27,340 nucleotides of DNA, taken from a virus. A program made the translations under genes and the position numbers. The stretch is taken from the IMG/VR virus record IMGVR_UViG_3300028569_000142, positions 1-27,340 of that record. One strand, written 5' to 3'. Under the pieces are notes generated by a model. That model was given only the letters and a program-made list of their open reading frames with translations, had not been told where the DNA came from and did no database searches. This document shows positions 1,026 through 14,636 of this stretch, piece by piece; positions within the stretch are counted from its first letter, which is position 1, and each line of letters begins with the position of its first letter.

Positions 1026-1054
1026 ATAATAGGTGCTCCGGGGGGAACAGGCAA
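1026..1054 (-). promoter_or_regulatory. Early-type promoter for 833-1015
   Basis: On the minus strand, TTGCCT (1049-1054), a 17-nt spacer containing GTTCC, and TATTAT (1026-1031). The -10 box ends 10 nt before the ATG at 1015. Confidence 0.6.
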
Positions 1055-1060
1055 CGGTTA

Positions 1061-1246
1061 TTATTCCGGAATAAACCTTGCAAGTTCCGGCATATCGGTG
1101 ATATATTCCGCCGCGCAATCGACGATAATATCCGGAACCTCGTTATAATCGGGGTGCACGCCGAGGTTTTTTCCGAGCTCGGCAAGCTGGGATTCGGATA
1201 ATTTTAGGAGTTTCGTTCGGATTTCGGTATAGGTAGCATTCATCAT
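1061..1246 (-). CDS. Hypothetical small acidic protein
   Basis: This 61-residue acidic protein (MMNATYTEIRTKLLKLSESQLAELGKNL...) starts at 1246 or at the adjacent ATG at 1243. The first half, with 'LLKLSESQLAELGKNLGV', looks like a short helical hairpin, and the rest is acidic. The start lies 7 nt after a CATAAT -10 box, so the transcript may begin at the ATG itself. The upstream region carries a tandem 38-bp repeat with -35-like hexamers (1279-1362), which suggests this gene or operon is specifically regulated. Function unknown. Confidence 0.65.
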   Translation of the reverse strand: MMNATYTEIRTKLLKLSESQLAELGKNLGVHPDYNEVPDIIVDCAAEYITDMPELARFIPE

Positions 1247-1253
1247 GACCTTT

Positions 1254-1281
1254 ATTATGGAGGAACTAGCGGGAAACGCAA
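1254..1281 (-). promoter_or_regulatory. Early-type promoter next to tandem repeats
   Basis: Minus strand: TTGCGT (1276-1281), 16-nt spacer with GTTCC, CATAAT (1254-1259), then 7 nt to the ATG at 1246. The -35 overlaps the start of the first 38-bp repeat. Each repeat carries a further TTGACT hexamer (RC of 1314-1319 and 1352-1357) without a matching -10. Confidence 0.6.
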
Positions 1282-1362
1282 GCTTGAAATTCCCGACCTG
1301 GAGGCCCCAGGAAAGTCAAGCTTGAAATTCCCGACCTGGAGGCCCCAGGAAAGTCAAGCTTG
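1279..1362. repeat. Tandem 38-bp direct repeat with palindromic core
   Basis: Two identical 38-bp units (1279-1316, 1317-1354) are followed by an 8-bp partial unit (CAAGCTTG, 1355-1362). Each unit holds HindIII-like AAGCTT, an inverted repeat CCTGG-5 nt-CCAGG, and on the minus strand TTGACT. Its position directly upstream of the 1246 promoter suggests a duplicated operator or activator site rather than coding sequence. The 37-residue lipoprotein gene ends only 5 bp beyond it. Confidence 0.85.
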
Positions 1363-1367
1363 TTTTA

Positions 1368-1481
1368 TCAGGGAAGTTCCTCTGGCCGTTCCCGGAAGTT
1401 TGGACTATTATAGCTAGTCCCTCCATGGCAGCCAGTTAGCAGTACTAGTGCCAGGAGGGTTAGGAGTGCGAGCCGTACCAT
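1368..1481 (-). CDS. Very small phage lipoprotein
   Basis: This 37-residue product, MVRLALLTLLALVLLTGC followed by HGGTSYNSPNFRERPEELP, has a textbook bacterial lipoprotein signal: a basic residue, a Leu-rich h-region and the lipobox L-T-G-C with Cys18 as the lipidated residue. The mature part is only about 20 polar residues. The ATG lies 1 nt after the stop of the gene upstream (TGA C ATG), so translation is coupled. Phage-encoded mini-lipoproteins such as T5 Llp act in superinfection exclusion by blocking the receptor. The same role here is an inference from size and signal only; it could also be a lysis or envelope-modifying factor. Confidence 0.7.
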   Translation of the reverse strand: MVRLALLTLLALVLLTGCHGGTSYNSPNFRERPEELP

Positions 1482-1482
1482 G

Positions 1483-1836
1483 TCAGAAGGGATTAACTAC
1501 TTCGGTGGTCTCTTCTTTGGTAGATTCATTGGACTTAGTACGTGTCTTACCGTTGTACTTGAGGAGGTTATCCCGGTTAGGGTACTCCGTATTAGCAGTA
1601 ATGGTTGCAAGTCCCTCTTTAGATACATAGTATGTGATGAGGTCCTGGACTGAGACATTAAGCTTTTGTGCTTTAGCATCCAAGTACTTCTGGTTAGTGG
1701 GTCGTGATTTACCGGTAACAGTGCATGTCAGTTTGAGAGCTGCTTTTGGCACCTTAACCGCTTTATTAGCACGAACGATTTGTCCGGACTTGTTCTTTGT
1801 GACTTTGATTGTGTTTTCTGTTGTTGTTTTGCTCAT
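1483..1836 (-). CDS. Hypothetical basic protein
   Basis: This 117-residue, Lys/Thr-rich protein starts MSKTTTENTIKVTKNKSGQ. Its central part reads CTVTGKSRPTN-(Q)KYLDAKAQKLNVSVQDL with ITYYVSKEGL, which looks like a compact helical domain followed by a low-complexity polar tail. Similar 'vTGkxr.t....l..Ka...gvs...l...YvsK' segments occur in small basic phage proteins of unknown role, and DNA binding is plausible from the charge. It is transcribed from the promoter at 1882-1910 with a leader of about 40 nt, unlike its leaderless neighbours, and is coupled to the lipoprotein gene. Confidence 0.7.
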   Translation of the reverse strand: MSKTTTENTIKVTKNKSGQIVRANKAVKVPKAALKLTCTVTGKSRPTNQKYLDAKAQKLNVSVQDLITYYVSKEGLATITANTEYPNRDNLLKYNGKTRTKSNESTKEETTEVVNPF

Positions 1837-1881
1837 TTTGTGTGTATTTGTTGTTTATTGGTGATCTCTTATTATTCGTAT

Positions 1882-1910
1882 TTTATACCGGAACACGCCT
1901 ATTAGTGCAA
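1882..1910 (-). promoter_or_regulatory. Early-type promoter for 1483-1836 and lipoprotein
   Basis: Minus strand: TTGCAC (1905-1910), 17-nt spacer ending GTTCCGG, TATAAA (1882-1887). The ATG is at 1836, so this transcript has a real leader, rich in A and C. Confidence 0.6.
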
Positions 1911-1961
1911 CGGAATTATTATCTATTATTTTCTATTAGCTCTTTGTTTCTCCTGTTTTGT

Positions 1962-2342
1962 TTAGTAATCAATATCAGACTCTTTAATGTCTTCAACAAA
2001 TACTTCTCCGTCCATTATTCGAATCATAATCTCTTGGTCCTCATAATATGGATCTTTCATACGTTCTTTTGAATTAAAGAAACTTTCCACAAATTTAAAA
2101 CATTCTCCTCCCAAAGCGCACATTGTGTATCCTTCAGTCATTATCTCTCTGAAGGTCCCATTCTTAATTCGTTCTAGATTCTTTGTGAATTCTTTCAATT
2201 GCCAAATCAATTCATCTCCGTCAATCTTTGCTCCTGCTGCAATTGAATCATTCACCATATCCTGATGAAACTCAATAATACGTGCTTCAATATCTTCTCT
2301 CTGTACTTCAACGATCTTTACCACTTTTTCTTTTATTTTCAT
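1962..2342 (-). CDS. Hypothetical acidic protein
   Basis: This 126-residue acidic protein (MKIKEKVVKIVEVQREDIEARIIEF...) is predicted mainly helical with an acidic C-terminus ending ESDIDY. It has no signal peptide, metal cluster or known catalytic motif. The ATG lies exactly 6 nt after a TAGAAT -10 box, so the mRNA is predicted leaderless. It begins the AT-rich part of the window. Function not recognised. Confidence 0.75.
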   Translation of the reverse strand: MKIKEKVVKIVEVQREDIEARIIEFHQDMVNDSIAAGAKIDGDELIWQLKEFTKNLERIKNGTFREIMTEGYTMCALGGECFKFVESFFNSKERMKDPYYEDQEIMIRIMDGEVFVEDIKESDIDY

Positions 2343-2348
2343 ATCTTT

Positions 2349-2377
2349 ATTCTATATTATACCTGCCGGAACTGCAA
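2349..2377 (-). promoter_or_regulatory. Early-type leaderless promoter for 1962-2342
   Basis: Minus strand: TTGCAG (2372-2377), 17-nt spacer starting TTCCGG, TAGAAT (2349-2354), then 6 nt to the ATG. An alternative TATAAT lies within the spacer but is badly placed relative to the -35. Confidence 0.6.
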
Positions 2378-2454
2378 TATCTTTCTGTGTTTTTCTTTAT
2401 CTTTATAATTATCAATTACTTACGTTTTATTCTATACCCTTATCTTATATCTTT

Positions 2455-2748
2455 TTATCGTTTATTTGTCATTTTTACCTTGTTTTCTCTTATATTTTCC
2501 CTCAATTTAATGTTCTTTTTCTCTTCTACCCCGAATTCTTCATACCCTACACTATCAAATAGATCTATTACTGCTTCTTTGATTAGATCAATATTGGAAT
2601 TCTTATTATATACCTCCTCTATTACTGCTCTCTCCAGTCCCCTCCAATCAACATCCTCTAGATTAAATTGAGTAAATGCATCACCAATGAGGAGCTCTTC
2701 CACGATTTGTTTTATTAGCTCCTGGCAACTTGGTGTTCTAATTTTCAT
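2455..2748 (-). CDS. Hypothetical small protein
   Basis: This 97-residue protein (MKIRTPSCQELIKQIVEELLIGDAF...) has an acidic helical body and a strongly basic C-terminal tail (EKKNIKLRENIRENKVKMTNKR). The ATG is 6 nt after a CATAAT -10 box, again a leaderless arrangement. There are no recognisable domains. The acidic body plus basic tail could suit nucleic-acid or RNA polymerase binding, but that is speculation. Confidence 0.7.
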   Translation of the reverse strand: MKIRTPSCQELIKQIVEELLIGDAFTQFNLEDVDWRGLERAVIEEVYNKNSNIDLIKEAVIDLFDSVGYEEFGVEEKKNIKLRENIRENKVKMTNKR

Positions 2749-2754
2749 GCTATC

Positions 2755-2783
2755 ATTATGGAGGAACTCTCCTCTTCCTTCAA
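2755..2783 (-). promoter_or_regulatory. Early-type leaderless promoter for 2455-2748
   Basis: Minus strand: TTGAAG (2778-2783), 17-nt spacer ending GTTCCTC, CATAAT (2755-2760), 6 nt to the ATG at 2748. Confidence 0.65.
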
Positions 2784-2790
2784 GCCTATT

Positions 2791-2886
2791 CTAGCCAAAA
2801 ATCCATATTAGCAACTTAACTATTAGATACCAAACTATAAGACAAAAAAAAGTACCCCCTAACCATGCTAAACCTCTGATTGACAT
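2791..2886 (-). CDS. Single-pass membrane peptide
   Basis: This 31-residue reading frame, MSIRGLAWLGGTFFCLIVWY then LIVKLLIWIFG, is almost wholly hydrophobic after a short basic N-terminus and should form one transmembrane helix. The ATG lies 3 nt after the stop of the zinc-cluster gene upstream (TAA TAT ATG), which favours coupled translation and argues that the frame is real. Tiny membrane peptides are common among phage early genes, as inhibitors or envelope factors. The role here is unknown. Confidence 0.5.
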   Translation of the reverse strand: MSIRGLAWLGGTFFCLIVWYLIVKLLIWIFG

Positions 2887-2889
2887 ATA

Positions 2890-3402
2890 TTACTTCTTTC
2901 GTTTAGTTTTTACTGGTGCAGTAATAGGAGCCTTTACCTTGCGGCCACTATCGTTAACCATTCTCTTACAAGCAGCTCTGCAGTTTTCATACAAGTTGCA
3001 CCCATTACAAGACCTATCCCAGTTTAGGTAAAGATCTGGCCTCCAGCATACCTGTAAATGCTTCCAAGCATTATCTTTATCTTTTACCAAGTTAACAAAC
3101 TCATGAGGAGAATTAAGGTTAATCTTCGGAATATCGTAAACCTTATTCTCGTCTTTCTCAATCTTTACCTTGCCGTTCTTCTTAACTTTCTTAAACTTAG
3201 GCTCTCTCTCTGGCTTACCTTCATTACGGCAACCTTTACAGATAAAACGAGTTAGAAGGTCTTCCAGAGAGCCAAACTTAGCAATACGACCCTCTAAGTT
3301 AGTCCCAAACATAGTAGTCTTTCCTTGGCACTTAGAGCAAAGAATATGAGGATGACTGAGGAGCTTTCCCGTCGTTTTAAAGTTGTTAATGTTATCTTTC
3401 AT
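2890..3402 (-). CDS. Double zinc-cluster protein, paralogue B
   Basis: This 170-residue paralogue of the 156-611 product shares the start MKD(N/Q)I, the motif TGKLLSHPH, TTMFGTNL and CWRPD. Metal-site candidates are C22-xx-C25 with C55-xx-C58 (zinc-ribbon spacing) and a C-terminal set C119, C132-xx-C135, C141, C145. The linker is Lys-rich and the C-terminus adds a basic tail ending KTKRKK that copy A lacks. This fits a nucleic-acid-binding phage protein. Codon use is AT-rich, in contrast to copy A. The -10 box at 3410-3415 ends 7 nt before the ATG. The precise function is not known. Confidence 0.8.
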   Translation of the reverse strand: MKDNINNFKTTGKLLSHPHILCSKCQGKTTMFGTNLEGRIAKFGSLEDLLTRFICKGCRNEGKPEREPKFKKVKKNGKVKIEKDENKVYDIPKINLNSPHEFVNLVKDKDNAWKHLQVCWRPDLYLNWDRSCNGCNLYENCRAACKRMVNDSGRKVKAPITAPVKTKRKK

Positions 3403-4482: not shown

Positions 4483-4782
4483 TTATTTGTAGTACGTATC
4501 TTGTTTAGTCTCAAAGTTCTTTGTCCAGATCTTAGATGCTTTGGAAATAACCTTTGCATTATTAATATTTTCCTTCCATCTAGCAAAAGCTTCTGAAAGT
4601 ATATAATTCTCTTTTCCTTCTGCTGCTTCATCAATATTATCAAGAAGTTCCATAGGATCCTCTTCTGAAATATCAAAAGCATCTTTATTCTTTAGCTCTT
4701 TGATTTCTTGCTTAAGCTCTTGAACTTCAATATGAAGTGCTTCAATTTCTGCTTTAATATGATTGACTATTTCCTCGTTCAT
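4483..4782 (-). CDS. Coiled-coil hypothetical protein
   Basis: In this 99-residue protein, residues about 8-33 (IKAEIEALHIEVQELKQEIK) form a clear heptad coiled coil, likely a dimeriser, followed by an acidic linker and a more basic C-terminus. There is no catalytic motif. The ATG at 4782 lies 6 nt after the -10 box of the promoter that diverges from the seven-gene array, so the protein may be co-regulated with that array. Function unknown. Confidence 0.7.
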   Translation of the reverse strand: MNEEIVNHIKAEIEALHIEVQELKQEIKELKNKDAFDISEEDPMELLDNIDEAAEGKENYILSEAFARWKENINNAKVISKASKIWTKNFETKQDTYYK

Positions 4783-4791
4783 ACCTATAAT
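4763..4791 (+). promoter_or_regulatory. Strong promoter of the seven-gene array
   Basis: TTGACT (4763-4768), 17-nt spacer, TATAAT (4786-4791): one mismatch from the sigma70 consensus. The start site should fall near 4798, leaving at most a few nucleotides before the TTG start at 4805. The -10 is half of the palindrome CCTATAATATAGG (4784-4796), shared with the minus-strand promoter. Confidence 0.8.
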
Positions 4792-4817
4792 ATAGGAGAA
4801 GGGATTGGATAGTGCAA
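4789..4817 (-). promoter_or_regulatory. Divergent promoter of the coiled-coil gene
   Basis: Minus strand: TTGCAC (4812-4817), 17-nt spacer, TATATT (4789-4794), 6 nt to the ATG at 4782. It overlaps the plus-strand -10, so both promoters cannot be occupied at once. Confidence 0.65.
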
Positions 4818-5365
4818 CAGATTTTATAAATAAAATAGTGGAATCTTTTAAGAAATTTGTAAAGGAATATGTTTTAGAGGTTGAACCTCTTGATAATATG
4901 GAGTATAGTCAAGCTTTTAGAATTAACTATTTGTCTGATTATGGATCAAATAATTCTTGGGGAGTAGATATAACTCCAATAAAAATTAACGATAATGGAA
5001 CTTCTAATTTGGCTACTGGATTTCTTATTTCAAAAAGATATTCTAAAGAGGAGGTTGCTACTATTTTAAAGCAATCAGAACAATCAATTTGTGTTTATCA
5101 ACATCATATTGTTTCTATTTTAGAGAAAGCAAGAATACACAATCCAAGAATAAAGGTAAAAGGAACAATAGGTAACCCTATTCCCTATCACAGTGACAAT
5201 ATACTTTATAAGGTTTTAACATCTCCAGAAGATATTAAAAAATTAAGTATTAAACTAAATTACTTTAACAATCTCTTTGAAATACATCATAGTTTTAACT
5301 TAGTTCCTTTAAAGATAGATATTGAAGTAAAGGATACATTTAGAGATCTTTATAACGAATTATAA
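4805..5365 (+). CDS. Array protein 1 (shared C-terminal FRDLYNEL tail)
   Basis: This 186-residue first member of a seven-gene paralogous array has a probable TTG start at 4805, with AGGAG 6 nt upstream; the next in-frame Met is at residue 32, inside the conserved N-motif. It has a helical N-terminal extension (about 1-22), then the family motif VEPLDNMEY, a divergent alpha/beta core, and the C-terminus DTFRDLYNEL. The same ending closes all seven products. The tail looks like a short linear docking peptide and resembles the C-terminal clamp-binding peptide of T4-type DNA polymerase, a similarity I recall and have not computed. The core function is unknown. Confidence 0.8.
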   Translation: MDSATDFINKIVESFKKFVKEYVLEVEPLDNMEYSQAFRINYLSDYGSNNSWGVDITPIKINDNGTSNLATGFLISKRYSKEEVATILKQSEQSICVYQHHIVSILEKARIHNPRIKVKGTIGNPIPYHSDNILYKVLTSPEDIKKLSIKLNYFNNLFEIHHSFNLVPLKIDIEVKDTFRDLYNEL

Positions 5366-5368
5366 TAT

Positions 5369-5863
5369 ATGAACTTAAAAGTAGAATTATTAGAACCAAT
5401 AAATTACAGTAAAGCCTATGTCCCTATTTTTAATTCTCTGGATGATTCTTATAATGTTTACAGAATAACAAAAACATATATGAGAAAAGTTCCTTATGTT
5501 ACTCCAGCTTATAAAAATATGGATTTTGTTTACAAAACAAACAACCCAGATGAATTAGATGAATTAGATGATACAGAATCATGTTTTATTATAGGAGGAG
5601 CAGATTTAGAATACGTAAAGCAATATGAAGAAAGAAACAATAGGATAATAAATGTGGAAGGAGAAAGAACCTTTCCATTAATTAAAAAAAAGAAGATGAA
5701 TGTTATAGCTTATTATAAAGTTTTAAATGATATGAGCTCTCCAGAATTTTTAAATTTGCTTAATACTGGACCTAGCTCAAAATTTCGATCGGTATTTCTT
5801 GTACCTACAGGAATAGATAATTCAACGAAAGAAGTATTTAGAGACCTTTATGATGAACTTTAA
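5369..5863 (+). CDS. Array protein 2 (C-terminal FRDLYDEL tail)
   Basis: This 164-residue protein starts 3 nt after the stop of array gene 1. It opens MNLKVELLEPINYSKAY (family motif E-L-L-x-P-x-x-Y), has an acidic run DELDELDDTE (about 61-72) in a divergent core, and ends KEVFRDLYDEL. The last codons overlap the start of the next gene. There are no enzymatic motifs, signal peptide or membrane helix, so it is probably a cytoplasmic adaptor or inhibitor built on the shared N and C motifs. Confidence 0.8.
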   Translation: MNLKVELLEPINYSKAYVPIFNSLDDSYNVYRITKTYMRKVPYVTPAYKNMDFVYKTNNPDELDELDDTESCFIIGGADLEYVKQYEERNNRIINVEGERTFPLIKKKKMNVIAYYKVLNDMSSPEFLNLLNTGPSSKFRSVFLVPTGIDNSTKEVFRDLYDEL

Positions 5864-6440
5864 TAAAAAATACAAAAGCATATCAGAATCAGTTGGATCT
5901 AATTTCTCCGATTTTAATCTCATGACACCGCTATTAGTTAAACCTGCAGATTATAGTAGGGTACTAGTTACAGATAGAGCAACTATATTGCCTATTATTA
6001 AGCCTAATAAGAGCTATAATGTATCTAATCATAACTTCTTTCTCAATACGGCAAATAAAGATAATATAAGCGGAGTTTACCCAGGAACACCTATGTATAA
6101 AAAAATAACGAACAGTTGGGAGCGTTTGCCTGCAGTAAAGGTTTTCTTTTTAAAAAACAGAGATGAATCTGATGGACCATTTAGATCCTCTTTAACAGAA
6201 GATGATAAAGATTGTCTCTTTATAGTTAATGAGGATATTATAGAGTATTATGCTAAGATTTTTAAAAAAAATACTAAACACGGTATAACTCAATACTATT
6301 TAAATGGATTCATAGAAGATGGTATCTTCAATAGACCAGGAAATTATTTCCCTGTTAACTATGATTATTTCGAGCCGTCCTTAAGTGATTTGGATGCAGA
6401 GACAAGAGATACCTTTAAGGATATATTTGGAGAGCTATGA
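5850..6440 (+). CDS. Array protein 3 (C-terminal FKDIFGEL tail)
   Basis: At 196 residues this is the longest member. Two adjacent ATGs (5850, 5853) lie inside the final codons of gene 2, so reinitiation after gene 2 is likely. The N-terminus is extended (FNKKYKSISESVGSNFSDF) before the family motif TPLLVKPADY. The core has no recognisable fold, and the protein ends RDTFKDIFGEL. The codons for its last residues (GGA GAG CT ATGA) supply both a Shine-Dalgarno-like sequence and the start of gene 4. Confidence 0.8.
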   Translation: MMNFNKKYKSISESVGSNFSDFNLMTPLLVKPADYSRVLVTDRATILPIIKPNKSYNVSNHNFFLNTANKDNISGVYPGTPMYKKITNSWERLPAVKVFFLKNRDESDGPFRSSLTEDDKDCLFIVNEDIIEYYAKIFKKNTKHGITQYYLNGFIEDGIFNRPGNYFPVNYDYFEPSLSDLDAETRDTFKDIFGEL

Positions 6441-6901
6441 GTGATAAGGTAATAATAGAATTAGAATTGTTGACTCCTATGAAGTATGAAAAATTTATTT
6501 CTACTGATGAACCTTTCTCAGAAATTATGTATGAAGTAACTAAGGTACATAAAGAGAAGAATACTGTTAGGAATACTAGACATTTAGGAAAACCAGATTA
6601 TGATGATATGGATAGAGCTGAGAGAGTTATATCAATAGCCAGCATTAATATAAGATCTCTATTAGATGAAAAAGCCTATACTTACGATATGGTTGAGTTT
6701 AAGGGTCTTTGTGACTTAGAAGAGAATAATTATTGCGCTTTATTATACATAGTAACTAATTCACATCACAGTAAAGTGAGGTCTTTTCTAAAGACATTTG
6801 TTAGTGGTAGAATAGATAGTACTGCAGGAAGTTATGTCATTAGGACTGATTTAGATGATAAAACAATTGGAACATTTAAGGATATGTTTGAAGAGCTATG
6901 A
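6437..6901 (+). CDS. Array protein 4 (C-terminal FKDMFEEL tail)
   Basis: This 154-residue protein starts in an ATGA overlap with gene 3. Its N-terminus, MSDKVIIELELLTPMKYE, is almost the same as in proteins 5 and 6. The core is divergent, with a segment FKGLCDLEENNY-x-ALLYIV that aligns with FKGFYKLEGQYRH-x-CSLVYIV of protein 6. It ends IGTFKDMFEEL. With 5 and 6 it forms the most recently duplicated subgroup. Confidence 0.8.
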   Translation: MSDKVIIELELLTPMKYEKFISTDEPFSEIMYEVTKVHKEKNTVRNTRHLGKPDYDDMDRAERVISIASINIRSLLDEKAYTYDMVEFKGLCDLEENNYCALLYIVTNSHHSKVRSFLKTFVSGRIDSTAGSYVIRTDLDDKTIGTFKDMFEEL

Positions 6902-7356
6902 GTGATAAAATTATAATAGAATTGGAATTGTTAACACCTATGGAGTATGAAGAGGTGTTTTGGAAAGATATGGTTGTGGGAAGCAAACCAACAATTTTTA
7001 CAATAGAGAAGCCTCATAGTAAAGGTTATAGAATAACAAATATAGCAATAGATGCGGGACATGCGAGAAAAAAAGAAGTAAAAAGTGAAGAAGATTATAT
7101 AGGGTTTGAACAAATACAATGGTTCGGAAGCGATGATAAATCTAGAATTGAATACCCGGAAAGATATGAATTAAAAGGACTTCATAAGGACGAATTTTTA
7201 GAACATTGTAATTTATATTATAGAATATTAAACCTTCCTGATGAGGGGTTTAAAAGAATAAGACATCGAAATAGTAATACTAAATGTTTCGTTAAGCCTA
7301 CTCACTTAGATAAGGATACAATTGAAACCTTTAAAGATATGTTTGATGAATTATGA
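6898..7356 (+). CDS. Array protein 5 (C-terminal FKDMFDEL tail)
   Basis: This 152-residue protein is joined to gene 4 by ATGA. The start MSDKIIIELELLTPMEYE and end IETFKDMFDEL are nearly those of protein 4, while the middle is strongly different apart from YELKGLHKDEF and a following NLYYRIL that mirror the FKGL...ALLYIV segment of protein 4. Conserved ends with a fast-changing core suggest that the ends bind a constant partner and the core a variable one. Confidence 0.8.
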   Translation: MSDKIIIELELLTPMEYEEVFWKDMVVGSKPTIFTIEKPHSKGYRITNIAIDAGHARKKEVKSEEDYIGFEQIQWFGSDDKSRIEYPERYELKGLHKDEFLEHCNLYYRILNLPDEGFKRIRHRNSNTKCFVKPTHLDKDTIETFKDMFDEL

Positions 7357-7805
7357 GCGATAAAATTATAATAGAATTAGAATTGTTAACTCCTTTAAAG
7401 TATAAAGAATCTATATATATATCTAATACTGGTTGGGGAGTTGTTCTAGAAATAAGAGAGGTATATAAGGCAGGGAATTATTTAAAAAATACTTACGCTC
7501 CCCATAATATAGGAAGACCATCAACACTAATAGATATAGAACAAGCGGAAGAATGTTTACTTATAGAGAGTTCTGAATTACATGAAAGAAAATTTAAAGA
7601 GCATATAGAGTTTAAAGGGTTTTATAAGCTAGAAGGACAATACAGACATATATGTTCACTTGTTTATATAGTAAAGAATCCAAATAAGGAAGTAGAAAAT
7701 GTTTTAGATAAAGGAGTTAGGAGTAGAATGAAGTATTATGTTAAAAAGTTTAATATAGATCAAGAAACTGTAGATGTATTTGGAGATATGTACGGAGAAT
7801 TATGA
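7353..7805 (+). CDS. Array protein 6 (C-terminal FGDMYGEL tail)
   Basis: This 150-residue protein is joined to gene 5 by ATGA. It starts MSDKIIIELELLTPLKYKES and ends VDVFGDMYGEL. The central block IEFKGFYKLEGQYRH and LVYIVKNPNKEVENVL match protein 4 positions, supporting common descent. No known domain. Confidence 0.8.
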   Translation: MSDKIIIELELLTPLKYKESIYISNTGWGVVLEIREVYKAGNYLKNTYAPHNIGRPSTLIDIEQAEECLLIESSELHERKFKEHIEFKGFYKLEGQYRHICSLVYIVKNPNKEVENVLDKGVRSRMKYYVKKFNIDQETVDVFGDMYGEL

Positions 7806-8287
7806 ATATAGAAAAATTAGAACCAAGTGAATATAAGAGTATAATAATGTTAGGATATGGTGTTCCACCTTATAGAAGATTACCAGATCTAAAAAATCTC
7901 AAATATCTGGCAAAGTCTTTAGATAATTTTGTTAAGCGAGATGTTATTAAAGGGGGTAGATTGCATGATACTAGAGATGATGTTGCAATAGAAGATTTAA
8001 CCAAACCTGATTTAGAGAGAGGTTATATGGTAGATAGAAACTTTTTATCTAGACACAAAATTATGAGGGAATCTAGAAGTAATCATTCCGAAGAATGGTA
8101 TAGAATTGACAAAGAGGTTATTAAATCTATATTTAGAAGAAATGATGAAACTTTGAATAGACATTTTGCTGACAAATACAAAAAATTTTGCTGTGATACA
8201 GTATTAGATACTCTCTTTGAGAGAACATGGGGCAAAGATGAGGGTGATATAAAAGATGTCTTTATGGATATGTTTACAGAGTTATAA
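7802..8287 (+). CDS. Array protein 7 (C-terminal FMDMFTEL tail)
   Basis: This 161-residue last member is joined to gene 6 by ATGA. It starts MNIEKLEPSEYKSI, a short version of the N-motif, has a basic, Arg-rich core, and ends IKDVFMDMFTEL. No gene follows, so here the conserved tail cannot be explained by overlap with a downstream ribosome-binding site. The terminator hairpin follows immediately. Confidence 0.8.
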   Translation: MNIEKLEPSEYKSIIMLGYGVPPYRRLPDLKNLKYLAKSLDNFVKRDVIKGGRLHDTRDDVAIEDLTKPDLERGYMVDRNFLSRHKIMRESRSNHSEEWYRIDKEVIKSIFRRNDETLNRHFADKYKKFCCDTVLDTLFERTWGKDEGDIKDVFMDMFTEL

Positions 8288-8289
8288 AA

Positions 8290-8315
8290 AAAAAGCGCTC
8301 TATAGAGCGCTTTTT
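8290..8315. terminator. Perfect bidirectional terminator
   Basis: A 26-bp perfect palindrome: A5 then GCGCTC, TATA centre, GAGCGC then T5. A GC-rich stem with a U-run on either strand serves both the plus-strand array and the minus-strand operon ending at 8335. Confidence 0.9.
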
Positions 8316-8334
8316 CTGTTTAATTTAATTTAGT

Positions 8335-8613
8335 TTATACTCCAAAGAAAATATTAAGCTTCTTAAAAGTTACGTCCATAATGTTATTATGAAGAACTTT
8401 CATAGCCCTTCCTACAGCAATTTTATTACCTAGCTTCCTATTATAATTATCCTTAATGTGACAATAGGATGTACCCCAAGCACTAGTTCCTTCTGGGGTT
8501 GTGATCTCAATCTTAGTTACCCTTTGCTCTTCATCACTAAAAGCATGAATAACTCTTACTTTATATCCACTCTTACGAAGTTGATGAATCGTAGGTGTAT
8601 TGTATTTGGCCAT
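8335..8613 (-). CDS. Hypothetical protein
   Basis: The gene encodes 92 residues from the ATG at 8613 (MAKYNTPTIHQLRKSGYKVRVIHAF). This start gives stop-T-ATG coupling to the upstream gene; an in-frame ATG at 8646 would overlap that gene by 32 nt. The sequence suggests an alpha/beta fold with a beta hairpin (RVTKIEITTPEGTSAWGTSY) and a helical C-terminus. Family not recognised. It is the last gene before the bidirectional terminator. Confidence 0.7.
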   Translation of the reverse strand: MAKYNTPTIHQLRKSGYKVRVIHAFSDEEQRVTKIEITTPEGTSAWGTSYCHIKDNYNRKLGNKIAVGRAMKVLHNNIMDVTFKKLNIFFGV

Positions 8614-8614
8614 A

Positions 8615-8833
8615 TTACAGTTCAAATCCAATGTTGTAATTCTCATTATAAATGAAATTATCTCTATTGTTTTTCCTTGCAGAACCTACAATTGTATGTA
8701 GGTCTTGCGCTAGTCCTTTATCAACTCTAAGCAAACTAACCAGAGTGTTGTAGGCTTCTGGAGAAATGCCTTCGTTTGATGTCAATGTTTGATTAATGTA
8801 TTGCTCAATTAGCTCTACAGCTTCTTTGTTCAT
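8615..8833 (-). CDS. Hypothetical small protein
   Basis: This 72-residue, mainly helical protein (MNKEAVELIEQYINQTLTSNE...) has a promoter of its own at 8890-8917. The ~50-nt leader contains a 7-bp hairpin (8863-8881 region), which may shield the 5' end or modulate translation. No known domain. Confidence 0.65.
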   Translation of the reverse strand: MNKEAVELIEQYINQTLTSNEGISPEAYNTLVSLLRVDKGLAQDLHTIVGSARKNNRDNFIYNENYNIGFEL

Positions 8834-8889
8834 TTGTTGTACTTGTATTTTGTATTAATTTAATAGGAAGTCTTTTCCTATCTTTTTTT

Positions 8890-8917
8890 ATTATACGTGA
8901 ACGTTCTTACTCATCAA
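8890..8917 (-). promoter_or_regulatory. Promoter for 8833-8335
   Basis: Minus strand: TTGATG (8912-8917), 16-nt spacer, TATAAT (8890-8895). Downstream, ATAGGAA-5 nt-TTCCTAT can form a hairpin in the leader. Confidence 0.6.
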
Positions 8918-9119
8918 CTGTTTTTTTCATAGTATTACTACCTTCAATTATACTATTGCATTCTTCTATACTACCACAAATGACTAAAGTAAATGGCGAT
9001 GATGTGATGCCAGAGCATTGAATAGGAGGTACAACTATTGAGTTACTATCTTCATCAACAATATACCACCAGTCAGTATTATTCGTAATATAATTTTGTG
9101 GGTTATTAATTTTTTGCAT
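8907..9119 (-). CDS. Small tail-fibre operon protein
   Basis: This 70-residue acidic protein (MQKINNPQNYITNNTDWWYIVDEDSNSI...) starts 1 nt after the LRR gene upstream. It is beta-rich with a Cys pair (C34, C48). Its place at the end of the fibre operon suggests a fibre-tip or chaperone role, but nothing in the sequence proves it. Confidence 0.6.
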   Translation of the reverse strand: MQKINNPQNYITNNTDWWYIVDEDSNSIVVPPIQCSGITSSPFTLVICGSIEECNSIIEGSNTMKKTVDE

Positions 9120-9120
9120 A

Positions 9121-9915
9121 TTAATTTGTTGTTACTGTCCAACCTCTAGATATTAAGATATTCTTATTTACTATACCAGCTGGTGAAGGTGCTTGATTAC
9201 CAGGGCCTCCTATGATAAGAACTCTATAACCGCTAGCTTTACCTGCATTAACAAATTCTTGCAATATACTATCAATAGCAGAAGAATCAAAGAGGTTATT
9301 GCTAGCAATAAAGTAACCTAAAGAAGAAGATACAGTACCTCCAATCCAGCTACTTATTTGATTATTGGAAATAACAAAATCTTCTAGTATAGGATTAAAG
9401 TTTAAATGACCAATGCCTCCTGTTAGCTTTATTGCTCCTAATTGACTGGAAGTGACAAAGGTCTTGAGCTTAACGCAAGCCGTGAGTGAAGGTATTTCTC
9501 CTTCTAAAGAGCAGTTACTAACAGAAAAGTTTTGAAGCAAAGACAAGCTTGATAGCGAAGGAATATTACCAGTTAAGTTAGGGTTACTATTAAATAAAAC
9601 TCTTACAGAAGAAGCTGGAAGAGGAGGTATAGATCCTGTAAACTGATTACTATGTAAAAATATAATAGATAATGGTTTATTATCTAATCTTTCTATAGTA
9701 TTGCTTATAACGTTATTATTAGCAGTAATGTTAATAAGCTTTTCATTATCACCATATCCATATAAACCTGTAAGACCATTAGATGTACATCTAAAATTTT
9801 CTAAATTTTCCAACCCAGAAAGATCTATATGACCTGCTAGAGGTGGTGAAGAGGAACCGCAATTTATATTAATAATATTTTTTAAAACTGAGGGCGATTT
9901 TAAAGATATTATCAT
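9121..9915 (-). CDS. Leucine-rich-repeat protein of the tail-fibre operon
   Basis: This 264-residue protein carries irregular leucine-rich repeats from about 20 to 215 (L-x-x-(F/L)-x-x-(S/A)-x-N-x-(L/I)-x-G-x-I-P), for example NLTGNIPSLSSLSLLQNF and SLEGEIPSLTACVKLKTF, then a C-terminal unit ending KNILISRGWTVTTN, a common ending of bacterial and phage LRR proteins. There is no signal peptide. LRRs form curved binding surfaces. Within a fibre operon, with 1-nt gaps to its neighbours, it is most likely a virion adhesin or receptor-binding accessory protein. A soluble effector is less likely but possible. Confidence 0.85.
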   Translation of the reverse strand: MIISLKSPSVLKNIININCGSSSPPLAGHIDLSGLENLENFRCTSNGLTGLYGYGDNEKLINITANNNVISNTIERLDNKPLSIIFLHSNQFTGSIPPLPASSVRVLFNSNPNLTGNIPSLSSLSLLQNFSVSNCSLEGEIPSLTACVKLKTFVTSSQLGAIKLTGGIGHLNFNPILEDFVISNNQISSWIGGTVSSSLGYFIASNNLFDSSAIDSILQEFVNAGKASGYRVLIIGGPGNQAPSPAGIVNKNILISRGWTVTTN

Positions 9916-9916
9916 A

Positions 9917-10843
9917 TTAAATCAAGTCACCTAAAGCAATAAAGGAGTTAGTGAGAGGGTCTTTATAAACTAAAGCTTTATCCATACTAAAAACTAAACT
10001 ATCTCCTTGAGATAATATAGTTGAGTTGGATGATTTTATAGTAAGAGTGTTATTTGATCTTAATACAATACCTAGATTGAAACCATTGGGTAGTGGATCA
10101 TTAAAGAAAGCAGTTAAAGGACCTGTTAATGTATCTATATGTAGTACTTTTCCTGAATGTTCTTCAAGCGCTGTAAAGTTAGAAGGACCACTATGATATA
10201 TAATATCCATTAATATAGTATTTGTATATGCATTATCCCATTTAGCGGAATTAGAACTTACTGTTGTATAGGTACTATCCCAATCTCCTGTAAGAGCTCT
10301 TACATCAGTATCTACTAGCTGTATTCCTGTTAAAGAAGATCCATCTCCATACACCTTTTTAGCATAAACTTCACCCGATGTAGATAAATTATTAACAAAA
10401 GTAAAGTTGGATTGGGGAGCAGTTATATTAGATCCTAATATGAAAGTATTACTCTTATCATTAGTACTGTTACTATCTCCTCCTAATATAGAAGAATAAT
10501 TACCGGAAGCTATATTATTACTTCCTCCAACAATTACTGAGTAGTTACCTGTAGCGGATTGTGCATCACTAGATCTACCCATTTGAAAATCTATAGCTGT
10601 TGTATTTCTGTTTTCTGTAGGAGCTGGAAAAGGAATTCGTCTTAAATCGTTTGCCCCGAATCTGTGAATTATCTCTTTTCTATCTGTATTAATAGCTAAT
10701 TCCCCAACCTCCATAGCTGATGCCCCTGCATTTTTAGTATCTAATTCTACCTCTGTTCCTTTTAATAATATAATTTTATCAAAAACAATATCTTGTAAAC
10801 TTTGGTTAGGGTAATCTGAATAAATTGGGTATTTATTAGGCAT
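9917..10843 (-). CDS. Tail fibre/spike protein with YadA-head-like repeats
   Basis: The gene encodes 308 residues from the ATG at 10843 (MPNKYPIYSDYPNQSL); an earlier in-frame ATG at 10888 lies inside the upstream gene. Residues about 46-60 (VGELAINTDRKEI) form a motif common at the base of phage fibres. Residues 99-125 (GNYSVIVGGSNNIASGNYS) are left-handed beta-roll repeats as in YadA-type heads. Residues 164-202 (VYGDGSSLTG, then TGDWDSTYTTVSS) match a module in the 454-residue protein encoded at 11719-13083. It likely forms a trimer. A late-type AATAAATA box lies 4 nt upstream of the ATG. Confidence 0.85.
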   Translation of the reverse strand: MPNKYPIYSDYPNQSLQDIVFDKIILLKGTEVELDTKNAGASAMEVGELAINTDRKEIIHRFGANDLRRIPFPAPTENRNTTAIDFQMGRSSDAQSATGNYSVIVGGSNNIASGNYSSILGGDSNSTNDKSNTFILGSNITAPQSNFTFVNNLSTSGEVYAKKVYGDGSSLTGIQLVDTDVRALTGDWDSTYTTVSSNSAKWDNAYTNTILMDIIYHSGPSNFTALEEHSGKVLHIDTLTGPLTAFFNDPLPNGFNLGIVLRSNNTLTIKSSNSTILSQGDSLVFSMDKALVYKDPLTNSFIALGDLI

Positions 10844-10847
10844 ATTG

Positions 10848-10855
10848 TATTTATT
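10848..10855 (-). promoter_or_regulatory. Late-promoter-like AATAAATA
   Basis: The minus-strand AATAAATA ends 4 nt before the ATG at 10843, in the gap between two fibre-operon genes. Confidence 0.4.
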
Positions 10856-10859
10856 TATG

Positions 10860-11717
10860 TTAAGGGACCTTAAAGAATGATAAATCAAAATGTGTTAGCT
10901 GATAACCTGTATTGATTCCAACTTGTGTATCAAGTTGAGATATCATTGTATTAATATCATTTTTAAGATTTAATACACTTGTACCCGCCCCTGCGCCTCC
11001 GAAGGTCCATATAGTTAGTATTACTAGCTCTCCATTTATAATCATAAAGCAAGGATTTGAACTATCACCTCCAATAATATTTTCGAAAAACTCTAATCTT
11101 TTAGAATTAATAGGAATCATAAAGTTAACAAAATTGCCTATCGTATTACCATCAGTAACAAGTGCTTTTTCTTCTTGATCTAAAGCAAGACAAGGAGTTC
11201 TTTTAAACGTGTTTAAATATGTTTGCCAATTTGTGGGTAAAATTTTACAAAATTTAATAGAAGATGGAGCATCATTATCTAAAACAGCTATGTTTATATC
11301 TGGATAATAAGGTCTATAGTCCGGATGAGTTTTAACCGCAGTAATTGTTCTTTGTATTATTTGATTATCTTTTGTAATAAAACGCATAACTGTACCAGGC
11401 CAGGGATGGAAATGTTCGGCAAATATAACATGTCTAGGTGTGATTAAAGTTCCTGCAAGTTGATTATATCCGCTAGAATTCCAAGGACTAATACCTGTTA
11501 AATCTACATCATATGCCCAACAATTTATATTTCTCACATATGTGCTTAAAGAATGATTTTGAGTAGAATATATATTTTTTGCTATTGAAGCGTTTTTATT
11601 TAAAAGTCTTGTGTCGACAGCTATAGAGGAATTTACATTTAAAAGAAAATAATCTTCTACCGGAGCTTTAGAAGAAATTTTAGTGCTACTATTTAATTGC
11701 GCTACTATTCTAGCCAT
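10860..11717 (-). CDS. Trypsin-fold serine protease in tail-fibre operon
   Basis: In this 285-residue protein the chymotrypsin-fold triad is readable: His102 in LITPRHVIFAEHF (like the 'TAAHC' block), Asp140 in DINIAVLD, and Ser219 in GGDSSNPCF (variant of GDSGGP). A following VILTIWTFGGAGAGTS matches the substrate-pocket strand. There is no signal peptide or propeptide. The N-terminal ~50 residues are Ser/Asn-rich and may attach to the virion. Such proteases in phage tails could trim fibre proteins or digest host surface proteins; the choice here is an inference. The gene sits between two fibre genes with gaps of 1 and 16 nt. Confidence 0.85.
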   Translation of the reverse strand: MARIVAQLNSSTKISSKAPVEDYFLLNVNSSIAVDTRLLNKNASIAKNIYSTQNHSLSTYVRNINCWAYDVDLTGISPWNSSGYNQLAGTLITPRHVIFAEHFHPWPGTVMRFITKDNQIIQRTITAVKTHPDYRPYYPDINIAVLDNDAPSSIKFCKILPTNWQTYLNTFKRTPCLALDQEEKALVTDGNTIGNFVNFMIPINSKRLEFFENIIGGDSSNPCFMIINGELVILTIWTFGGAGAGTSVLNLKNDINTMISQLDTQVGINTGYQLTHFDLSFFKVP

Positions 11718-11718
11718 A

Positions 11719-13083
11719 TTAGTATTTTATTTTTATAGTATCTAGAGAACCACCCCAGTAAGTGATATCCCCAGACCCTGTAACTTGTATAGAAAGTGTC
11801 TTATTAGTATTGTCTATATTAACGTCAGCTTTTAAATTTATGTCTTCTTCTATTTGTTCTTTTATTGTAAAAGGAGATAGAGTTAGGGTGTTGCCTATAC
11901 TTTTTACAAAACCTTTAATAAAATATACATTACAAAGTTCACTCTCAATATTAAAACCCGTTACATTAACATTAAAATAATATATTGTATTGTTAGGTAT
12001 TTCAAAATAAGAAGTTGCTCCATCTAGTGCTAAATTTTTATATTTGTTTGAGGAATCAGTAGTAGTAGAAAGAGTAAAAAAACTTTTTTGAAAGGATCCA
12101 CTTAAATTATTAAATCTTGAATTACTAAAAGCAATCTCCCCTTCATGAGAAGTAACAGCATGTTTTCCACCCACTATAGAGGAGTAATCGCTAATTGCTT
12201 GATTAAAACCATTACTTGGCTGAATAGCGTTTACTCCCTCTCCTCTTTGAAAGACTCCCCAATCTCCACTAAAAGAACTAACTGTGGTAAAAGTGTTTTG
12301 CCAATCACCTGTAATAGCTCTTACACCTGTATCAATAGATGTAGAAACAATATTGGTAAGTTCAGACCCATCTCCATAATATTTGTAAGCACTTACATTA
12401 CCAGCAACTGTAAGAAGTTCGTTTGGAGAAGTAGTACCAATACCAACTTTATCTTCATCTAACGTTAAAATCGAATAAAGAGAATTGGTTCTAGCAACGT
12501 GATTACGAATTGTTAATATAGATCCACTAACATTTCCACTGAAAGAATTATATTTATTTTGACAATAAATGGAAGTTCCTGTCGAATTTCCTCCTTTAAA
12601 AGTTATTCCTCCCAGTGCATCGTATGGTGACAAAATAAATGATGTCGAGTAATCATTTGAATTTCCTGAGCTAGTTCTAACAAAATCAAGTTGAGCATTA
12701 AAATCCAAACCAGCACCGGGTACTGTAACAGCGTGACTTCTTAGTTCAATAATTCTGCTTGGCAAGTAGTTATCTGTTACAAATTGAAATCCTTTACGCG
12801 AAAGATTTTTTGTCGATGCTGCACTTGCTCCTACAACAATTGTTCCATTTGAATCGATAAGAAAAGAAGTAGCATTTGGATTTGTATTGTCTTCAACTAA
12901 TAGAACATTACCTGTACCTCTTTGAGTAACTCTAAGAGCAGGTGTCGAAGAAAAGGTATCGACTATAATAGCACTAGTCGCAGATAAGGTTGTGATACCA
13001 AAAGTACCGGTAACTGTTAAGTCTTTTTCTACTAATACATTTTCTTTAAATATAGCATCATTAATGAAATAATCTTGGACCAT
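11719..13083 (-). CDS. Tail fibre/spike protein
   Basis: This 454-residue first gene of the fibre operon has an N-terminal beta-rich stalk (KDLTVTGTFGITTLSATSA), the typical fibre phrase DKVGIGTTSPNELLTVAGN at about 211-229, and YYGDGSELTN to TGDWQNTFTTVSS at 235-275, which recurs in the 308-residue protein. A YadA-like phrase SDYSSIVGGKHAVTS follows, then a C-terminal beta domain (about 330-454) that may be the host-contact head. No enzymatic motif. A late-type AATAAATA lies 5 nt before the ATG. Confidence 0.85.
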   Translation of the reverse strand: MVQDYFINDAIFKENVLVEKDLTVTGTFGITTLSATSAIIVDTFSSTPALRVTQRGTGNVLLVEDNTNPNATSFLIDSNGTIVVGASAASTKNLSRKGFQFVTDNYLPSRIIELRSHAVTVPGAGLDFNAQLDFVRTSSGNSNDYSTSFILSPYDALGGITFKGGNSTGTSIYCQNKYNSFSGNVSGSILTIRNHVARTNSLYSILTLDEDKVGIGTTSPNELLTVAGNVSAYKYYGDGSELTNIVSTSIDTGVRAITGDWQNTFTTVSSFSGDWGVFQRGEGVNAIQPSNGFNQAISDYSSIVGGKHAVTSHEGEIAFSNSRFNNLSGSFQKSFFTLSTTTDSSNKYKNLALDGATSYFEIPNNTIYYFNVNVTGFNIESELCNVYFIKGFVKSIGNTLTLSPFTIKEQIEEDINLKADVNIDNTNKTLSIQVTGSGDITYWGGSLDTIKIKY

Positions 13084-13096: not shown

Positions 13097-13137
13097 GCAA
13101 TAAAGTCATAAGCACATAAACTTTCTTAAAAAGATAG

Positions 13138-13209
13138 CGACTCTGCGCAGAATTGAACTGCGGTTACGTGGATGAAAACCACGTGTCTTAACCACTAGAC
13201 GACAGGGTC
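13138..13209 (-). tRNA. tRNA-Glu(UUC)
   Basis: Acceptor GACCCTG/CAGAGTC (one C-A mismatch), anticodon stem CGTGG/CCACG with loop TTTTCAT (anticodon UUC), T-loop TTCAATT. CCA is not encoded. Confidence 0.9.
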
Positions 13210-13225
13210 ATATAAATTTTAAAAA

Positions 13226-13307
13226 TGGTACACCCGGCGCGACTCGAACGCGCATACTCCAGTTACTCGGTTAACGACCGCTTAGAAGGCGGTTGAGATA
13301 CGGGTGA
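13226..13307 (-). tRNA. Atypical tRNA-Arg(UCU)-like gene, D-arm missing
   Basis: Anticodon arm ACCGC-CTTCTAA-GCGGT (UCU), T-arm GCGCG-TTCGAGT-CGCGC, acceptor (T)CACCCG/CGGGTG(T) and encoded CCA are clear. Only 7 nt (TATCTCA) separate acceptor and anticodon arm, so no normal D-arm can form. The variable region is 23 nt and can pair GTTA/TAAC. It may be a D-armless tRNA, a rearranged gene or a decaying one. Confidence 0.6.
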
Positions 13308-13314
13308 GTAGAAA

Positions 13315-13390
13315 TGGTGGGCCTGATCGGATTCGAACCGATAACCAAGTCTTTATGAGAGACACGCTCTAACCTTTGAGCTACAAGCCC
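13315..13390 (-). tRNA. tRNA with CAU anticodon (Ile2 or Met)
   Basis: Acceptor GGGCTTG/CAGGCCC, D-arm GCTC/GAGC, loop CTCATAA (CAU), variable TTGGT, encoded CCA. The overall pattern resembles bacterial tRNA-Ile2, whose C34 is modified to lysidine to read AUA. Elongator Met cannot be excluded. Confidence 0.85.
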
Positions 13391-13397
13391 TAAATTT

Positions 13398-13577
13398 TTA
13401 AGGTAATTCTACAGGATCTACCTTAGGTTCAAGAAGATCTTTAATCTCATCTTCTATTCTTTTAATCTCTTCTCTAAAGCCACGAGCAGAAACTTTCTTT
13501 TGCTCTCTCATTTCATCGAGCTCTTGACACAGTTGATATACTTTGGATTCTTTAGATCTTGTATTTGTATCTTGCAT
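13398..13577 (-). CDS. Small coiled-coil protein inside tRNA cluster
   Basis: This 59-residue, highly charged protein (MQDTNTRSKESKVYQLCQEL...) is predicted to be a continuous helix or coiled coil up to a short Pro-containing end (EPKVDPVELP). It lies between two tRNA genes, with 7 nt to the downstream one and 8 nt to the upstream one. There are no catalytic motifs. It may be co-transcribed with the tRNAs and released by their processing. Confidence 0.6.
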   Translation of the reverse strand: MQDTNTRSKESKVYQLCQELDEMREQKKVSARGFREEIKRIEDEIKDLLEPKVDPVELP

Positions 13578-13585
13578 ATTAAAAT

Positions 13586-13661
13586 TGGTTGCGGCGTAGG
13601 GACTCGAACCCTAGTTGTGTGCTTATGAGACACACCAGACCACCTGGCCTAGCCCACCGCG
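13586..13661 (-). tRNA. tRNA-Met(CAU), with C1-A72 as in initiators
   Basis: Acceptor CGCGGTG/CGCCGCA gives an unpaired C1-A72, a hallmark of bacterial initiator tRNA. Anticodon loop CTCATAA (CAU), T-arm TAGGG-TTCGAGT-CCCTA, CCA encoded. The anticodon stem lacks the three G:C pairs of initiators, so elongator function remains possible. Confidence 0.85.
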
Positions 13662-13672
13662 TTATGTCATTA

Positions 13673-13700
13673 ATTATATAGGAAAATTTGTTTTAATCAA
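13673..13700 (-). promoter_or_regulatory. Promoter for the downstream tRNA group
   Basis: Minus strand: TTGATT (13695-13700), 16-nt spacer ending TTCCTA, TATAAT (13673-13678). The start would fall a few nt before the tRNA at 13661. Confidence 0.65.
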
Positions 13701-13713
13701 CTGATTTTTTTTA

Positions 13714-13785
13714 TTGGCTCGACGGGATTTGAACCCGTCCCGACTCAGTCACAGTGAGTAATGCTAGCCTCTACACCACGAGCCA
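13714..13785 (-). tRNA. tRNA-His(GUG)
   Basis: Acceptor TGGCTCG/CGAGCCA is perfect. Anticodon arm ACTCA-CTGTGAC-TGAGT (GUG), T-arm GACGGG-TTCAAAT-CCCGTC. No encoded CCA. A G precedes position 1, as expected for histidine tRNA. Confidence 0.9.
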
Positions 13786-13786
13786 C

Positions 13787-13943
13787 ATCTAAATTTTTCA
13801 GCTGAGTCTACATTGGCTTCCGGGTCTTTAACCCGATGGACGTAGATTGTCATTTAAACCTGCCTAATCGGTACTGTGATAAGTCTGCAACGGTGAGCTT
13901 TTTAAGAACAGAACAGCACTCCATTCCCGTCCGACTTATCTAA
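13787..13943 (-). ncRNA. Short structured non-coding segment
   Basis: This AT-poor segment has no reading frame of interest. An 8-bp stem (GATAAGTC 13878-13885 with GACTTATC 13933-13940) encloses a 47-nt loop. A second hairpin pairs CGGGT (13821-13825) with ACCCG (13831-13835), inside CTAC/GTAG (13808-13811, 13842-13845). It lies directly after the glycosyltransferase stop and before tRNA-His on the transcribed strand. The strand is inferred from its neighbours. Confidence 0.45.
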
Positions 13944-13944
13944 A

Positions 13945-14631
13945 TTAAAATTTAATTGAATGCACCAGAAGATTTGATGGAATATTTTCTAGATCTTTTT
14001 CATGAAACCTTTTGTTATAGTCGAAATATTCTTTGTTTAAAAGATTATCGTCAATAATAGAATGATATGTTAAATTTTCTAAATTGCAAACTGTAAAAGG
14101 AAAAACTTCATGATGAGCGTAAATGCCTTTTTCAGTTAAAAATATCATAATTTCTATAATTTTTTTAGAAAATCTAAATATTTGACCTAATCCACCTGCT
14201 GTAGGAATTTTTGTTTTATAATTACCTCTAATTAAATTACTGTATAAAGTCCACCAAGAGCTTTTGTCATTTAAGGTATAATGAGGACAAATTAAATCAT
14301 ATTCCTCATTTTTATAAAAATTAAAAAAATTTTCAAAATCTCCGTTAAAAACTACATCATCTTCTAACAACCATATGTAATCATATTGTTCTAATTTATG
14401 CAAGTCATATATAGAAGCGAATGTAGCATATATTATATTAATAGGCTCTTTTATGTAATTGTTGAAACTATACTCAAAATGGTTTATACTATTACTATAT
14501 TTTAGGTTATCTTTAAAATCGGAAATAATATAAGTACTATAGTCTTGATCTGGAAGTTTTTTATATCTTTCTTCCATTTTGGAAACATTTTTATTACATG
14601 TTAAATAGCATATAGCTGTTTTTTTACTCAT
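13945..14631 (-). CDS. GT-A-like glycosyltransferase
   Basis: The gene encodes 228 residues from the ATG at 14631 (MSKKTAICYLTCNKN); an upstream in-frame ATG at 14682 lies in the tRNA and is rejected. The N-terminal strand AICYLTCNKN and the block YDYIWLLEDDVVFNGDF (D91-D92, DxD-like) mark a GT-A nucleotide-sugar-binding fold. A later PTAGGLGQIFRFSKKI fits the acceptor-side region of small glycosyltransferases. There is no membrane segment. It could glycosylate phage DNA, virion protein or host glycan; the substrate cannot be read. A late-like AATAAATA ends 5 nt upstream. Confidence 0.75.
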   Translation of the reverse strand: MSKKTAICYLTCNKNVSKMEERYKKLPDQDYSTYIISDFKDNLKYSNSINHFEYSFNNYIKEPINIIYATFASIYDLHKLEQYDYIWLLEDDVVFNGDFENFFNFYKNEEYDLICPHYTLNDKSSWWTLYSNLIRGNYKTKIPTAGGLGQIFRFSKKIIEIMIFLTEKGIYAHHEVFPFTVCNLENLTYHSIIDDNLLNKEYFDYNKRFHEKDLENIPSNLLVHSIKF

Positions 14632-14636
14632 ACAAA

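Follow-up and report, generated by a model that had tools for sequence, protein, structure and literature searches.

The viral record IMGVR_UViG_3300028569_000142 of the IMG/VR database, analysed here over its complete length of 27,340 bases (hereafter, the window), carries at positions 4805-8287 an array of seven consecutive plus-strand genes, the products of which share a short peptide at their extreme C-terminus. Judging from its neighbouring genes, we place the window in a phage of the T4 superfamily. One of its proteins is related to proteins of cyanophages, Methylophilales phages and pelagiphages, the fragment is devoid of replication core genes, and close homologues of window genes, up to 88% identical, are present on an 8 kb contig (L001) that ends before the array. 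The clade is probably of freshwater origin, judging from the IMG project numbers. The strand of the array is opposite to that of most surrounding window genes. Its order and coordinates, as first described from the sequence, were borne out by the open reading frames (ORFs), which follow each other end to end.

Gene 1 (4805..5365, 186 residues) starts with TTG and has an N-terminus (DFINKIVES) that loosely resembles the capsid-targeting sequence (CTS) of T4; it contains no nested start, and gene 2 (5369..5863, 164 residues) begins 3 nt past its stop codon. Gene 3 (5850..6440, 196 residues), also loosely CTS-like at its N-terminus (MNFNKKYKSISES), starts within the tail codons of gene 2 (ATGATGAACTTT) and is joined by an ATGA overlap to gene 4 (6437..6901, 154 residues), whose core is akin to those of gene 5 (6898..7356, 152 residues) and gene 6 (7353..7805, 150 residues). 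Gene 7 (7802..8287, 161 residues) is the last of the array: no gene follows it, and it still ends in the tail. Just upstream of gene 1 lies a putative sigma70-type promoter (TTGACT-17-TATAAT, 4763..4791, plus strand) that matches the consensus at 11 of 12 positions, its location being suggestive only, as two such matches occur within the 3.9 kb scanned. An intrinsic terminator with an 11 bp stem (AAAAAGCGCTC-TATA-GAGCGCTTTTT, 8290..8315, plus strand) follows 3 nt after the gene 7 stop codon, in a scan that found one terminator against 1.4 expected in shuffled sequences. With a possible promoter before gene 1 and a strong hairpin terminator after gene 7, the array therefore looks like a single operon.

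Read gene by gene, the endings of all seven products carry the shared tail at the exact C-terminus, as had been claimed: KDTFRDLYNEL in gene 1 (tail IDIEVKDTFRDLYNEL, 16 residues encoded at 5315..5362), KEVFRDLYDEL in gene 2 (tail IDNSTKEVFRDLYDEL, 5813..5860, codons that hold the start codon or codons of gene 3), RDTFKDIFGEL in gene 3 (6390..6437), GTFKDMFEEL in gene 4 (6851..6898), ETFKDMFDEL in gene 5 (7306..7353), DVFGDMYGEL in gene 6 (7755..7802) and KDVFMDMFTEL in gene 7 (8237..8284), all on the plus strand. Alignment extends the shared block beyond what was first noted, to about 16 residues beginning with [LI]-D-x-[DE]-T, and yields [LI]Dx[DE]Tx[DE][TV]Fx-D-[MLI]-[FY]-x-E-L as the tail motif of the window. 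The codons for its F, D, E and L differ synonymously from gene to gene.

The same feature is present in relatives of the window. A 218 kb contig (L018, here termed G001) has about a dozen genes in common with the window and contains 23 tail genes, with tails such as LSKDTRDSFGGLLDVL, plus two internal copies of the motif; its tail genes form arrays at 7368-9572 and 194210-199008, with others scattered elsewhere. Another relative, G012, has a five-gene array at 1036-3364 that was found by a tail profile. Direct homologues of the window array proteins were not detected in IMG/VR by protein, alignment or tail DNA pattern searches, and three ORFs that did show the tail pattern are 30-residue fragments, which we read as chance. 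A search of 50,697 phage records by tblastn, using a G001 array protein and both tail peptides, returned nothing useful, and a whole-family profile search of the relatives was empty because the families share the tail only. The arrays of the relatives were found instead by scanning the C-termini of fetched contigs; 79 clade loci were fetched with the G001 polymerase as bait, and the majority of another 27 contigs were also read. No C-terminal array was found in Phage C48C1 or HTVC008M, and three matches to the G001-type tail pattern in bacterial genomes were judged to be chance.

A profile built from 21 G001 tails, with the window and G012 tails excluded, ranked six window genes, the five G012 array genes and one other protein as the top 12 of 4,266 other ORFs, and a single shuffled sequence scored above 5 bits in the control. 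Because a profile derived from G001 alone places the array genes of the window and of G012 at the top, we regard it as confirmed, at the level of sequence comparison, that the sharing of the tail between phages is not due to chance. In profile-profile comparisons, the window, G001 and G012 families align in their last 19-22 residues only (E 5e-4, 1e-3 and 2e-3), and the consensus over the phages is [LIV][SDE]x[DE][TV]x[DEQ]x[FW]xx[LMIV][LIVFY]xx[LI]. The feature is common to at least three phages.

Upstream of the tail, the proteins have little in common. Once tails are removed, BLASTP relates genes 4, 5 and 6 to each other, the match between genes 3 and 5 is marginal (E 0.001), and genes 1, 2 and 7 have no match at E <= 0.01; the tail-less G001 cores show only a few related pairs. 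None of the seven window proteins matches a Pfam or PHROG family above the curated cut-off. The tail-only profile alignments and the tail-less comparisons thus support the original prediction in describing small proteins whose cores are diversified and whose C-terminal peptide is constant. The N-terminal motif that it assigned to all seven proteins is present, in degenerate form: gene 1 has EPLDNMEY, with N in place of P, and gene 3 has LLVKPADY.

The joint presence of an N-terminal strand motif and a C-terminal tail in the window proteins would also be expected if all of them had one highly divergent fold in common and the tail were its final helix, conserved for folding and with no separate partner. 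Whether the tail lies inside the fold had been singled out beforehand as a point on which a tethering function would stand or fall, and the two AlphaFold2 models, built on alignments of 10 (G001 member) and 7 sequences (window gene 5), give a divided answer. The model of the G001 member is the better one. Its beta-rich core, residues 11-100, is mostly predicted at a local distance difference test score (pLDDT) of 84-90, with residues 31-40 at 71, and its least certain parts are the first 10 residues, at 44, and the last 17, where the tail (101-117) is a helix at 59/49 placed outside the core. The gene 5 model is weaker overall (mean pLDDT 72), and its tail helix, residues 139-151, is about as confident (pLDDT ~72) as the rest of the model. 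Foldseek searches of the PDB with both models gave no match at E <= 0.001 (best Z 4.9 and 2.8). The better model would put the tail outside the core fold, and the cores, 91 to 322 residues long, are mostly without detectable similarity, yet the tail is the most conserved part. We consider a common fold an unlikely, though not a far-fetched, explanation of the shared tail.

The DNA that encodes the tails has a second role. In 10 of the 23 G001 tails, the final nine codons contain the Shine-Dalgarno sequence and the start codon of the next gene as well: the codons for F-G-G-L-[LI]-D-V read TT[TC]GGAGG......GATGT, GGAGG stands 8 nt before ATG, and the start of the next gene is at -11 relative to the end of the stop codon. 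Nested initiation sites are likewise found in four of the five G012 tails (with GTG as start codon once and a weaker AAGG Shine-Dalgarno once), and in the window the start of gene 3 falls within the tail codons of gene 2 (ATGATGAACTTTAA), in a -14/-11 geometry related to that of G001 and G012, while genes 4-7 start by ATGA overlap. No nested junction was found in 37 further records, where the few extra local matches looked random; the best of them, a lone GGAGG-N8-ATG-like match at about 9398 (minus strand) of contig L149 (G016), lies inside another gene and is not an array. As in other translationally coupled overlapping genes, the 3' end of one gene holds the start codon and Shine-Dalgarno sequence of its successor; here, however, the overlapping peptide is itself conserved and is repeated as a cassette junction.

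The constant spacing of GGAGG and ATG or GTG at these G001 and G012 junctions could suggest that the tail is a mere by-product of translational coupling, that is, conserved DNA read in another frame. The nested junction does force the GG and DV residues in the overlapping set, and F-GG-xx-DV is nearly forced. The motif is nevertheless kept without a nested start in window genes 1 and 7 and in the G001 genes at 7368, 49178, 195315, 197404, 207383, 207833, 208212 and 210388, as well as in the internal copies, and it stays constant across overlap geometries (-11, -4 and none). Non-overlapping tails retain the F, the hydrophobic positions and the end, the Shine-Dalgarno sequence is preceded by the conserved L[SD]x[DE]T block, and E and L vary synonymously. 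Since tails with no overlap keep the motif, selection also acts on the peptide. The earlier assertion that a ribosome site cannot explain the tail accordingly holds for the persistence of the motif where no start follows, as in gene 7, downstream of which no start codon was found, but went too far in that many junctions do double as initiation sites. Overlap with initiation sites accounts for some tail residues and not for the motif as a whole; as a complete account, the by-product explanation is largely refuted and quite improbable, and it stands as a partial one.

The original prediction had named the phage sliding clamp as a candidate partner. In a clamp tether, a tail resembling a PCNA-interacting peptide (PIP) would dock each protein on the phage gp45 or the host beta clamp. 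The model for such a tether is provided by T4 gp43, gp55 and gp33, whose hydrophobic and acidic C-terminal tails are interchangeable clamp tags (PMC2988020; PMC7892883). The array tails are likewise short, acidic and hydrophobic, stand at the extreme C-terminus and lie outside the core in one model; those of the window locally resemble the L-x-D-L-F of T4-type clamp-binding motifs (gp43/gp55/gp33, PIP box), their FxD[ML]F sharing h-x-D-h-F with the LFDLF of the clade polymerases. Because gp43, gp45, gp55 and gp33 are not encoded on the 27 kb window fragment, the proposal was tested in the relatives, where the C-termini of polymerase and gp55 do not match those of the arrays. Nearly all of the ~70 clade polymerase C-termini read have a PIP-like QTDLFDLF/L or a close variant, and in G001 and G012, whose polymerase and array are on the same contig, the polymerase ending, QTDLFDLL(S) or QTDLFDLF(GD), contrasts with SFGGLLDVL or QWGGIVDEL in the array. 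Array tails have no Q, no conserved terminal aromatic residue and no consistent pair of aromatics, whereas their strict F/W is absent from the polymerase; they also have an upstream N-cap, their conserved helical block of 16 residues is longer than the clamp motif, and two G001 copies of the tag are internal. The 22 gp55 homologues found, among them those of G001 and G012, all end in unrelated acidic sequence with no hydrophobic clamp tail, and the array-tail profile does not single out the polymerase, whose best rank ranges from 6 to 258 among 3,103 non-array C-termini. The likeness of FKDMF to the LFDMF of the RB69 polymerase, from which the proposal had drawn, is best seen as a local coincidence, since the invariant parts of the tail motif differ. 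The sliding clamp is thus unsupported as the partner of the tail, and we attach little credence to a clamp tether, which still has the h-x-D-h-F resemblance in its favour.

Ordinary tandem duplication with gene conversion of the ends, by which shared ends would reflect recent copying and have no special function, suits genes 4-6, which share both ends at the DNA level, but is very doubtful for an array whose genes 1, 2, 3 and 7 have diverged in their cores and synonymous tail codons while keeping the same tail residues, and for a tail common to other phages with unrelated cores.

The most plausible reading of the tail is that of a handle for a single shared partner. It is a portable module, because in G001 it is also joined to an NT5C nucleotidase domain (49178-50146) and occurs in a protein made of three units, all of which end in the motif, so that two copies are internal. 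We give roughly even chances to the array being an operon of diversified accessory proteins with a C-terminal docking helix, possibly for virion packaging. Under this proposal, the accessory operon of a freshwater T4-superfamily phage would encode small, fast-diversifying proteins, each consisting of a folded variable core and a constant 16-residue amphipathic helix with an N-cap, and the helix would be an exposed tag by which many different cores dock on a single shared partner. The tag may sort proteins into the phage particle, or hold them with it (prohead core, inner head), so that the packaged proteins could be delivered with the DNA as anti-host or anti-defence factors. The tail codons, for their part, would constitute a cassette junction: where genes overlap, each cassette would end with the initiation site of the following gene, and the junction would both couple translation and give neighbouring genes a homologous block for the swapping of cores by recombination.

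Sorting with the particle is the most likely use of the tag because most G001 and G012 members have N-termini like the CTS of T4. By a strict pattern, such N-termini occur in 12 of 22 G001 tail proteins against 12 of 287 others (Fisher p 9e-10), and by eye in all five array members of G012. Several observations weigh against this proposal. In the window, genes 2 and 4-7 lack an N-terminus of this type and genes 1 and 3 come only loosely near it, so that packaging is suggested for the window only through its relatives; other G001 and G012 proteins are CTS-like and have no tag; and the F at the third position of MSF, MYF and MNF starts is partly dependent on the tag, since these starts overlap tail DNA. 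The array proteins are mostly acidic (median isoelectric point 5.75 in the window, 5.0 in G001 and 4.9 in G012), and the putative promoter is of the sigma70 type, which is more typical of early than of late genes. The confidence of the tail helix in the gene 5 model, about equal to that of the rest, is also compatible with packing of the tail onto its own core in the window. A prohead-protease site at the C-terminus was considered as well and rejected, as the G001 tails have no consistent site.

A close parallel is provided by the T4 internal proteins IPI, IPII and IPIII, which like the array proteins are small, hypervariable and clustered, with just a short sorting peptide in common. In T4, residues 1-10 of IPIII are sufficient for packaging, the internal proteins have little more in common, and IPI*, which is injected, inhibits restriction and has a known role in defence against the host (PMC9026906, PMC3012670). 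The CTS-like N-termini of many G001 and G012 relatives add to the likeness. The T4 proteins, however, are basic and carry their CTS at the N-terminus, whereas the constant tag of the array is C-terminal and the window proteins are acidic and mostly devoid of a CTS; no sequence similarity between the two sets was found, and it is the array junctions that double as initiation sites. In its fullest form, the proposal is that of a portable C-terminal sorting tag on dozens of unrelated small proteins, with codons that serve as the initiation site of the next cassette, forming an effector arsenal that may be delivered by the virion; we advance it tentatively, as somewhat less probable than not.

Segments resembling the tail were also seen outside the arrays. 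The tail sheath proteins of the clade (G001 144158-146545 and homologues) end in IATRTGQNF[SEQ]ELI, which is the best non-array match to the G001 tail profile and is probably a chance one. On the minus strand of the window, a protein of 113 residues (24251-24592) has a tail-like internal segment (LSNDTKKALKTMYTIL), and its G001 homologue (208619-208966, 50% identity) is located among tail genes.

Other features of the window lie on the minus strand. A cluster of 11 transfer RNA (tRNA) genes (Glu, Met x2, His, Thr x2, Gln, Asn, Tyr, Leu, Ile) occupies 13137-17342, where the ORF 15616-15831 is probably spurious and merely reads through tRNA genes. Among the genes of a tail-fibre-like block at 9121-13083 are one for a leucine-rich-repeat-like protein (9121-9915) and another whose trypsin-like product has a GGDSSNP segment (10860-11717). 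The genes at 156-650 and 2890-3402 encode a paralogous pair of Cys-rich proteins (CGCGNKTTMFGTNL... and CSKCQGKTTMFGTNL...), possibly zinc-binding, with relatives in G001 and in a further relative, G013. The product of 22421-22942, 73% identical to its L001 homologue, has a CFAGVSRST segment that resembles a C-x5-R phosphatase loop, and that of 19980-20624 is nucleotidyltransferase-like, with a weak match to a phage nicotinamide mononucleotide adenylyltransferase and a CTS-like N-terminus (MNYKFKQLVEALLKE).

As far as the literature was searched, we found no description of such arrays or of their tag. What is most clearly new is that a conserved, sorting-like peptide and a nested initiation site are combined in a repeated cassette junction. 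The tail codons are a clear case of protein and translation-initiation constraints acting on the same 27 bases, gene after gene. If the tail codons do work as a junction, arrays could expand and exchange their cores without losing either the tag or the coupling of translation. The partner of the tag, once found, would give the site of action of every member. Should the tag indeed direct cargo into the particle, it would represent the C-terminal equivalent of the T4 capsid-targeting sequence and provide a marker, readable from sequence alone, for virion-delivered anti-host proteins.

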